Source: an uncultured Lutibacter sp. (lineage in GTDB: Bacteria > Bacteroidota > Bacteroidia > Flavobacteriales > Flavobacteriaceae). Taken from it: DNA of 14,658 bases. The notes under the pieces are model-generated. The model made no database searches. It was not told where the DNA came from and saw nothing but the letters and a program-made list of their open reading frames with translations. Numbering within the stretch: the stretch's first letter is position 1; each line of letters opens with the position of its first letter. Location of the stretch: the NCBI GenBank assembly GCA_913061425.1, contig CAJXUO010000004.1:1-14658 (forward strand). Direction: 5' to 3'. Made by a program: the position numbers and the translations under genes. This document shows positions 3,502 through 7,837 of the stretch, one piece after another.

Positions 3502-3849
3502 ATGAAAATCATATTTAAAATTATATTCACTGCATTAGCAGTATTGGTCTTAGCACATTTTTTACCTGGAGTAGCCCTTGCAAAACCTGAATCTGCAATA
3601 TATGTTGCAATAGTTTTAGGATTGTTGCGAATTACAGTAAAACCATTGTTAATCTTTTTTACACTTCCTGCAACCATTGTAAGTTTAGGCTTATTTCTGT
3701 TTGTAATAAACGCAGTAGTTGTCTTAATTGCCGATTATTTTGTAGACGGTTTTGCCGTTAGTGGATTTTGGATAGCATTACTCTTCAGTATACTCTTATC
3801 ATTTTTACAATCAGTACTTTATTCTTTCTTAAAAGAAAAGAAAAAATAG
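3502..3849 (+). CDS. Small four-helix membrane protein, phage holin family IV-like (YvlD type)
   Basis: A 115-residue, almost wholly hydrophobic protein with four predicted transmembrane segments at about 3-25, 32-50, 52-77 and 86-110, ending in a basic tail (LKEKKK). The segment TVKPLLIFFTLPATIVSLGL followed by a hydrophobic run with INA is characteristic of the PF04020 group, which shares the name of a mycobacterial phage holin superfamily but is mostly chromosomal and of unknown role. Nothing nearby is phage-like, so I do not read it as a lysis protein. It lies 45 bases after the hydrolase and probably shares its transcript. I see no convincing promoter in the gap. Confidence 0.82.
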   Translation: MKIIFKIIFTALAVLVLAHFLPGVALAKPESAIYVAIVLGLLRITVKPLLIFFTLPATIVSLGLFLFVINAVVVLIADYFVDGFAVSGFWIALLFSILLSFLQSVLYSFLKEKKK

Positions 3850-5361: not shown

Positions 5362-6228
5362 CTATTCCTTAGCGCCATGGCTCTTTGCAGTTTCTATCCA
5401 ATGTTCAGAAATTTCCTTTGCGTCCGCTCCTAAGCCTCTAGCCAAATGTAATGCTACACCCATAATTAAAACAGAAGCATCATGAAGTTCTTGTGGTGTT
5501 TGTAGGTTTCCAAACTTTTCTTGCGCTTTTAATAGTAGTAAATCATTGTGTTTTTGAGCAAAAGTAGTTGGATTCTCAATGTTATCGTTTATTGCAGGTA
5601 ACATCAAGCAGTCTATCCATTCTTCACCTATTCTTGCTGCTAATAACTCAGGAAGTTCGTTTCCTATTTCTCTCCATACACTTAATGTTTTCGTGTCTCC
5701 AGATGCAGCTAATCCTGAGTCTAAAAGTAACTCAAAGGCAATATCAGCAATGTTTTGCATTATAATTAAATATTCATCTTGAGCCTTTTCGAATGGATCT
5801 GCTTCCTGTCCTTTAAGATATTCACCTACACTAAGTTTGGGTAATTCTAGAACTTCAGAGCAGTCTGTCAAACAAGGGAATGTATCTCCTTGGTAAATAT
5901 AATGTGTTTTATTAGATTGTATTTGACGGCCTAATGGATATAGACGACACGCTAATGGGCGACCCAAATGGACGCTACAACCTACATTCTCTACATATTG
6001 GCTACATGCTTGTTGCCCTTTTTTATCGGGTTTTCCGTTAAAGCGCAATCGAATACCACCAAACTCACAATACAAATCACGAAATTCTCTTGAAGTAATT
6101 TTCTTTTCTTTACTGAAACTTAGTAACTCCCATGGATTAAGCATTACAGTTTTACCAAAACAGCAAGTTCCAGATCGGGAGCAGGTAAGTGGTAATATAC
6201 TTTGAGTATTGAGTTTAGTTACTTGCAT
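5362..6228 (-). CDS. YkgJ-like cysteine-cluster protein
   Basis: A 288-residue soluble protein whose N-terminal third carries a cysteine cluster: Cys16, Cys22-Cys23 (TCSRSGTCC), Cys54, Cys75, Cys84 (GCSVHLGRPLACRLYP, with Cys94), then Cys119 and Cys123. This matches the YkgJ family (PF03692), thought to bind zinc or an iron-sulphur centre, with no settled biochemical role. The C-terminal part, from about residue 125, is mostly helical and acidic, without motifs I recognise, and extends the protein well beyond the short YkgJ members. It is the last gene of a minus-strand cassette: the small membrane protein ends 17 bases upstream. The bidirectional terminator lies just beyond its stop. Confidence 0.85.
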   Translation of the reverse strand: MQVTKLNTQSILPLTCSRSGTCCFGKTVMLNPWELLSFSKEKKITSREFRDLYCEFGGIRLRFNGKPDKKGQQACSQYVENVGCSVHLGRPLACRLYPLGRQIQSNKTHYIYQGDTFPCLTDCSEVLELPKLSVGEYLKGQEADPFEKAQDEYLIIMQNIADIAFELLLDSGLAASGDTKTLSVWREIGNELPELLAARIGEEWIDCLMLPAINDNIENPTTFAQKHNDLLLLKAQEKFGNLQTPQELHDASVLIMGVALHLARGLGADAKEISEHWIETAKSHGAKE

Positions 6229-6245
6229 TTTTTAATACACTATAA

Positions 6246-6596
6246 TTAAGTAATTTTTGTTTTTAAGTGTTTAATAAGCATAATGGATGCCATAATTAGA
6301 TTAACTCCTAAAAACAAACTGCCAAATAGTAATAATTGAATGTAGTTATCATCATTTGTATTAGTGAATTCTGACAATTCAGATATTAAAGCCAAAACCA
6401 TAAATAGATTTAATAGTATAAATATTGAAGAAATAACAATTCCTAAAGTTGCTTTTTTTGAAATGAGTTGGTAGGTAAATATTGCCAATAAAACGATTGC
6501 AATTGGATTAAATAGATTGGAAGTTAAGATCCAATAGTATATAGTTGCGGCAATTAAATATAATTCTGTAATTTTTGAAATAATTTTTTTATTCAT
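6246..6596 (-). CDS. Small four-helix membrane protein of unknown function
   Basis: A 116-residue protein beginning MNKKIISKITELYLIAATIYY. Hydrophobic segments lie at about 9-25, 28-45, 50-72 and 87-108, with a short polar, acidic loop (SEFTNTNDDN) before the last, and a basic tail (KHLKTKIT), so an inner-membrane protein is likely. I do not recognise a family. The DNA is very A+T-rich (15 G or C in the 60 bases from 6301, by hand count), in contrast with the gene upstream. It lies 18 bases after the end of the interrupted winged-helix gene and 17 bases before the YkgJ-like gene, implying one transcript. Confidence 0.72.
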   Translation of the reverse strand: MNKKIISKITELYLIAATIYYWILTSNLFNPIAIVLLAIFTYQLISKKATLGIVISSIFILLNLFMVLALISELSEFTNTNDDNYIQLLLFGSLFLGVNLIMASIMLIKHLKTKIT

Positions 6597-6614: not shown

Positions 6615-7049
6615 CTACACAATATTCTCCACACCTTGAAGTGTTACATAAAAACCTTGACCTTCTTTTTGACAAAACCCTTGACTTATGTTTTGGTTCA
6701 ATTGGTGACTTGGATTTGTGATTTTTACTTGTCGTGCAGCGCGCAAAGCATCTGTAACCTCTTTGGTCTTTATCATTTGCTATCCACGTTGTTGTAACCA
6801 AACTGCTGTACCTAAAAAGCGTCTACGTTGCTTGTCTATAGCATCGCGCTTGCGCAAAAAAGTAGAAAGGTTTTCTGTTGCAGCCTGTTCTGTAACTTGT
6901 GTAGTTTTTGGAGTGCTTTTTTTGCTCTCACTTTCCAGTTCTGGAATACGCGTCAACACTTTATCCAATTGTTCGGTTACCCAATCTTGGTCGCCTTCGC
7001 CAACAAATTCGATATTCCCAATTTTAAATTCTATACGAGCGTTTGCCAT
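6615..7049 (-). pseudogene. Winged-helix-like protein interrupted by an in-frame UAG at codon 90
   Basis: From the ATG at 7049 the frame encodes 89 residues (MANARIEFKIGNIEFVGEGD..., ending FLGTAVWLQQRG), meets TAG at 6780-6782, then continues in the same frame for 54 more residues (QMIKTKEVTDALRAARQVKI ... GFYVTLQGVENIV) to a second TAG at 6615-6617. The downstream half looks like real protein: a helical stretch followed by a wing-like GFCQKEGQGFYVTLQGVENI. From memory, homologs join the same two halves (TFLRK... FLATAVWL ... KDVTKAL) with an ordinary residue, probably Lys, at the UAG, so AAG to TAG would be a one-base change. Hand-counted G+C is about 40%, above the neighbouring membrane gene, suggesting acquisition. 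The promoter is intact. It could be a recent pseudogene, two products (reinitiation at the ATG at 6776), or a sequencing error. Confidence 0.75.
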
Positions 7050-7077: not shown

Positions 7078-7108
7078 CAAAAGTAGCAAAAGTAAATTAA
7101 ACATCAAA
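7078..7108 (-). promoter_or_regulatory. Promoter of the minus-strand cassette
   Basis: On the minus strand TTTG (7108 to 7105), a 19-base spacer and TACTTTTG (7085 to 7078) match both halves of the Bacteroidota consensus exactly. A second TACTTTTG lies at 7094 to 7087, with TTTG at 7121 to 7118 (23-base spacer), a possible alternative start. Transcription from the first would begin near 7072, about 23 bases before the ATG at 7049. Confidence 0.7.
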
Positions 7109-7177: not shown

Positions 7178-7837
7178 ATGAATTACGGAAAAGAATTTAA
7201 AGAATTTGCTACTAAGCATCACGGTATTAATAGTATGTACTATGATAAAATCGTGAGTAATGTAACACCATATATTATGGAAGAGCGCCAAATGAATATT
7301 ACTCAAATGGACGTTTTTTCTCGTTTAATGATGGATAGGATTATCTTTCTAGGAACAGGAATTGATGATTATGTTGCCAATATCATTCAAGCGCAATTAT
7401 TATTTTTAGAAAGTGTTGACAGTTCTAAAGATATTTCAATCTATATAAATTCTCCAGGAGGAGGCGTTTATGCAGGATTAGGGATTTATGATACAATGCA
7501 ATTCATTAAGCCAGATGTAGCAACAATTTGTACAGGAATGGCAGCTTCTATGGGAGCAGTATTGATGTGTGCAGGAACGAAAGGAAAGCGTTCAGCCTTA
7601 CCTCATTCTCGTGTGATGATTCACCAACCTTTAGGTGGTGCTTCAGGTCAAGCAAGTGATATTGAAATTACTGCAAGAGAAATAATGAAGTTGAAAGGTG
7701 AGTTATATGATATTATTGCAAAACATTCTGGTCAAACTGTAGAAAAAGTCCACAACGATTCAGATCGTGATTATTGGATGAAAGCAAAAGAAGCGAAGGC
7801 TTACGGAATGATTGATGAAATATTAGAAAGAAAATAG
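7178..7837 (+). CDS. clpP: ATP-dependent Clp protease proteolytic subunit
   Basis: Serine peptidase that forms the tetradecameric chamber fed by ClpX. The 219-residue protein has INSPGGGVYAG at 90-100, the nucleophile Ser124 in GMAASMGA, His149 in VMIHQPLGG and Asp198 in the SDRDYWM segment, a complete triad with normal spacing. The N-terminal stretch of about 35 residues before ERQMNITQMD is the usual propeptide/axial loop region. The ATG at 7178 gives a normal length. clpX follows after 45 bases and the two are surely one operon. Unlike the common order, tig is not directly upstream. Confidence 0.96.
   Translation: MNYGKEFKEFATKHHGINSMYYDKIVSNVTPYIMEERQMNITQMDVFSRLMMDRIIFLGTGIDDYVANIIQAQLLFLESVDSSKDISIYINSPGGGVYAGLGIYDTMQFIKPDVATICTGMAASMGAVLMCAGTKGKRSALPHSRVMIHQPLGGASGQASDIEITAREIMKLKGELYDIIAKHSGQTVEKVHNDSDRDYWMKAKEAKAYGMIDEILERK

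Follow-up and report, generated by a model that had tools for sequence, protein, structure and literature searches.

An in-frame TAG in a winged-helix gene beside clpP of an uncultured Lutibacter, probably marking a recent nonsense pseudogene

The interrupted gene and its surroundings

The window, by which we mean the whole 14,658-nucleotide stretch analysed here (contig CAJXUO010000004.1 of assembly GCA_913061425.1), derives from an uncultured Lutibacter sp. whose draft genome comprises 1,852,245 bases in 381 contigs and is 78% complete. A reading frame on its minus strand (7049..6615) starts with ATG at 7049, runs for 89 codons and meets a TAG at codon 90 (6782..6780), after which the same frame continues for 54 further sense codons to a terminal TAG at 6617-6615. 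An in-frame ATG begins at 6776, separated from the internal stop by one codon. The first-pass annotation had described the stop, the open continuation and the nearby ATG without stating the strand, and all three are present. The upstream ORF including its TAG (6780..7049, minus strand) is catalogued as protein P0047, and the continuation including its terminal TAG (6615..6779, minus strand) contains a 53-residue ORF, starting at 6776, that is catalogued as P0055.

The promoter-like pattern TTTG-N19-TACTTTTG that had been noted ahead of the gene is found at 7108-7078 (7078..7108, minus strand); it is a pattern match, and we take it to be a promoter of the Bacteroidota type. With a spacer of N19/20 it recurs in four of the six relatives aligned (L016, L017, L018 and L005), with no match in the remaining two (L019 and L022). 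The divergent neighbour at 7178..7837 on the plus strand is, judged by its sequence, presumably clpP.

Homologues and fold of the intact protein

The translations of the two halves were joined with an X at the stop and used as a single query, as the first-pass annotation had proposed. This search returned 54 proteins, one of which (P0047) is the window's own 89-residue piece. Of the 53 non-self homologues, 48 cover the query completely (100%) in the alignment, a further one covers 97% of it and the last four cover 38–75%. A residue is present at the stop column (6780..6782, minus strand) in all 53 non-self rows, truncated catalogue forms besides P0047 having been only partly checked. Because homologues span the stop as one ORF, the sequence comparison identifies the two halves as one gene and the continuation as coding sequence rather than a chance open frame.

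A whole-genome search covered 198 genomes, 14 of them from the genus (the window's own included) and 184 from outside it. The gene is found as a single open frame in 8 of the 13 other genus genomes and has no match in any of the 184 outside, and the window's genome is the only one of the 198 with a stop inside the match. In six of the eight congeners that carry it (G006, G007, G010, G011, G012 and G013), the intact gene adjoins clpP, as it does here, while in G002 and G008 it is located away from clpP. The five genus genomes that give no match (G001, G003, G004, G005 and G009) are each 69–84% complete, and their lack of the gene may in part reflect assembly gaps; an empty locus is seen only in G003. 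There, the gap between clpP and tig is 164 bases and holds no trace of the gene (L030), nor is the gene present elsewhere in that genome, which is 84% complete. In G005 and G009 clpP has other genes upstream, and in G001 and G004 clpP itself is without a match. The locus is thus a clean example of one gene that is intact, interrupted or missing from the locus among congeners.

Homologues with a named source come from Lutibacter sp., Urechidicola and from unclassified Flavobacteriaceae MAGs. Distant full-length relatives occur in one Verrucomicrobia MAG, one Deltaproteobacteria MAG and, besides the window's own genome, two other Bacteroidota genomes among 394 sampled; these distant members of what is otherwise an unnamed winged-helix family of Flavobacteriaceae share the same architecture over their full length. 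A search of a phage collection gave no match, and a phage origin is not supported.

By VIA-align, the intact protein contains a three-helix core and a beta-hairpin wing, so that the earlier description as winged-helix-like fits its C-terminal part. The architecture consists of an N-terminal strand-strand-helix part, a variable linker and the C-terminal winged helix, which in the window corresponds to 6618..6839 on the minus strand (P0002 residues 80-153). Within this domain the stop separates helix 1 from helix 2. The upstream ORF encodes the N-terminal part, the linker and helix 1, the continuation supplies helices 2-3 together with the wing, and a complete domain is therefore present in neither fragment. 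The fold assignment rests on VIA-align, Foldseek having returned no matches at E ≤ 0.001 and a PDB profile search nothing better than E 0.1. We found no sequence relationship to solved winged-helix proteins such as 1stz, Rio2 (6fdn), MepR (3eco) and MntR (2hyf), and sharing their fold shows no function.

Family-library searches were run over 18 family members. In Pfam, HemN_C was matched in 9 of the 18 (best E 0.0072, under the cut-off in the member shown) and Med10 in two (E 0.0011), the other Pfam matches being single. NCBIfam gave blaARL in four members (0.00046) and WzzB in nine (0.024), and PADLOC gave DndD in two (2.2e-05), PglZ in nine (0.0026) and LmuB in three (0.0019). We disbelieve all of these, since they involve few members or are weak, and neither length nor fold fits.

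In two distant relatives, L023 (1527-2288) and L024 (4124-4879), a gene of 251–253 residues lies directly 3' of the winged-helix gene; the two copies share 56% identity and have no Pfam match over the curated cut-off and no PADLOC match, and in L023 a type II methyltransferase gene adjoins. A Bacteroidota homologue (L205, 1501-2133) has two RGRP runs in its linker, which we take to resemble AT-hooks. The winged helix, these runs and the second gene with its methyltransferase neighbour suggest that the intact product is probably a DNA-binding accessory protein, and in L023 and L024 the two adjacent genes possibly form an unnamed two-gene unit. A tblastn search of the other loci compared, those of the genus included, did not recover the partner, and the winged-helix protein therefore stands here without it. 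Catalogue protein P0054 (200 aa) has the family's N-terminal part followed by unrelated sequence that looks, presumably, dockerin-like; it is perhaps an assembly chimera.

UAG as a stop codon in this genome

The gene for release factor 1 (RF1) is a complete ORF of 358 aa that scores above the family cut-off. The search that located it counted one TAG in the matched stretch; the ORF is whole from ATG to stop, and we infer that this TAG falls within the two codons that precede the RF1 ATG. No tRNA with a CUA anticodon is among the 15 tRNA matches in the 78% complete assembly. In 867 kb there are 416 ORFs with a length of at least 250 aa, terminated by TAA in 335 cases, by TAG in 60 and by TGA in 21. 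Within the window, both clpP and dnaG end in TAG, as had been reported, and so do the ORF at 3502, the CxxCxxCC gene and nadE.

We compared 682 ORFs, taken from 800 kb of the G006 and G010 genomes, with the 867 kb. Matches were obtained for 199, and in 138 the alignment spanned 70% with an identity of at least 50%. These 138 alignments contain two distinct internal stops, the winged-helix TAG and one TAA. The latter lies 12 residues into its alignment, just before an internal Met, and we read it as a mis-extended start, which makes the winged-helix TAG the only stop read as in-gene. The reverse control (687 ORFs, 190 with matches, 119 aligned) also gave two internal stops, one of which looks antisense while the other sits 7 residues in. 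No frame split was seen in either direction.

The same assembly contains a second TAG-interrupted gene, at 1363-2214 of L057 (G000:C1), with its TAG at 1513-1515. Found by a coding-potential scan, it comprises a signal-peptide-like piece of 50 codons followed by 233 codons, and in G010 the two match a single open frame in collinear order. A first scan for interruptions produced 20 candidates. Two of these, L092 and L104, turned out to be separate genes of the ordinary kind, as the open frames of relatives end near the same place, except that for L104 the match in G011, one of six genomes, sits in a longer frame of 539; a third, L076, is on visual inspection infC following thrS. A wider scan gave 47 candidates (38 TAA, 6 TAG and 3 TGA), of which only L057 looked real when judged by eye. 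Both scans are insensitive, neither having listed the window's own stop. TAG makes up about 20–22% of what is expected from one-step nonsense changes, and its occurrence in two of two interruptions would have a chance of about 0.04 in a sample chosen after the fact; we regard this as suggestive at most.

That both recognised interruptions are TAG speaks for a general reassignment of UAG to an amino acid, but the intact RF1, the use of TAG as the terminal codon of long ORFs, its place at the end of the 219-aa clpP (closed by TAA in six congeners) and the single in-gene stop in the orthologue survey all stand against it. On RF1, terminal TAG use and the survey we reject this explanation, whose probability is negligible, in agreement with the earlier statement that UAG is not generally reassigned here.

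Origin and fate of the in-frame stop

The protein catalogue holds the 89-residue half (P0047) from 6 contigs and the 53-residue half (P0055) from 9, with two member sequences each; the longest of these contigs is 58,928 bases, against 14,658 for the window's. The split form thus occurs on more than one contig, which makes an error confined to one assembly unlikely. The fragmented and incomplete state of the draft would favour a sequencing or assembly error as the source of the TAG, but the catalogued halves, although some of their contigs may copy one assembly, and a private change after the stop that is unexpected in an intact gene make such an error highly improbable.

Against the intact genes of L016, L017 and L018, the downstream half shows dN of 0.036–0.052 and dS of 0.99–1.27, compared with dN of 0.008–0.065 and dS of 0.55–0.89 for the intact pairs among those three; dS is near saturation, and the bound on the age of the stop is accordingly rough. 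Along almost the whole branch, selection acted on the part after the stop, whose low dN means that the stop came late or that the downstream part is still used. Changes in this part are few. One, private to this sequence, puts L where 50 of 51 rows carry P and so affects an almost invariant residue; another unusual residue is the final V, at a position that varies in homologues too. The P-to-L replacement suggests relaxed selection, although as a single change it is no proof. A clpP+clpX tree leaves seven of its nine inner branches open and is too poorly resolved to date the loss.

We favour the reading that a dispensable winged-helix gene has recently become a nonsense pseudogene, and give it a probability of roughly 0.8. 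Of the three options offered by the first-pass annotation, a young pseudogene is thus the best supported, while readthrough and use as two pieces found no positive support. The intact orthologues that span the stop as one ORF at the same locus, the conservation after the stop, the gene-free locus of G003 and the private change all speak for it, as do the catalogued split halves, the intact RF1 and the single in-gene stop of the orthologue survey. The gene would be vertically inherited and non-essential in a Flavobacteriaceae genus that includes Urechidicola croceus, and in this lineage it would recently have become a pseudogene through a nonsense mutation in the hinge that follows helix 1. Ribosomes would stop after 89 residues and release a product lacking the recognition helix and the wing, while the sequence past the stop would have only begun to drift. 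Function, presumably DNA binding, would then be lost from a dispensable gene, with no alternative route to the protein. Two observations sit less easily with this account. Conservation in the downstream half almost reaches the level seen between intact relatives, as would be expected if this part were still in use no less than if the stop came late, and a split form that has spread to several contigs, each half being represented by two member sequences, seems slightly too old to be a fresh lesion. Nonetheless, a pseudogene explains everything seen and calls for no special mechanism.

Continued use of the gene could take two forms. Under low-efficiency readthrough a little full-length protein would still be made and the stop would amount to down-regulation rather than loss. 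A survey (PMC7918605) describes in-frame stops in bacteria as widespread and mostly short-lived, with dN/dS below 1, and argues that they are frequently read through in prokaryotes, an argument for which we keep low-level readthrough as a rival. The conserved downstream half agrees with it, as does the position of the stop at a hinge whose column holds two residue types in homologues, and so does the second TAG-interrupted gene, TAG accounting for only about 21% of the one-step nonsense expectation. However, RF1 is intact, no CUA anticodon appears among the tRNA matches of this incomplete genome, the private change affects a nearly invariant residue, the two TAG cases were selected after the fact, and the survey of 138 orthologue alignments contains only one in-gene stop. 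The stop is also not conserved across species as in a recoded gene, being found in one of nine gene-bearing genus genomes, the window's own. Nothing measured here favours readthrough over decay, and we consider readthrough unlikely. The broader version, in which weak suppression or inefficient termination lets the lineage pass UAG at a low level, so that the winged-helix protein and the secreted protein of G000:C1 are both made in small amounts and the stop acts as a dimmer, seems to us equally improbable. Were readthrough shown, the locus would allow the idea that short-lived in-frame stops serve as regulators to be tested in a natural setting.

Alternatively, the gene could be used as two pieces, an N-terminal protein of 89 residues and a second one, of 53 residues, whose translation restarts at the ATG following the stop. 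The closeness of that ATG to the stop, the cataloguing of both halves as ORFs and the conservation of the downstream half are in its favour. Against this, the break parts helix 1 from helices 2-3 and the wing, and because of that separation two pieces are unlikely to make a winged helix. Met also occupies the post-stop column in 14 of the 53 homologues and need not be a newly evolved start, and a search with the 53-aa protein returned the window's own cluster only, with no other stand-alone relative at that sensitivity. We think this use very unlikely.

Read as a nonsense allele, the winged-helix gene records an ordinary event of routine gene loss. It resembles the nonsense pseudogenes and short-lived in-frame stops surveyed in PMC7918605 in having a single stop, intact orthologues and visible selection around it. 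Relative to the cases described there, nothing is distinctive here except that one congener also lacks the gene at this locus. We note that between the winged-helix gene and tig the accessory genes differ among congeners (5362-6596 in the window, 6527-9322 in L016 and 6478-6924 in L018), and that this stretch looks like a small insertion hot spot.
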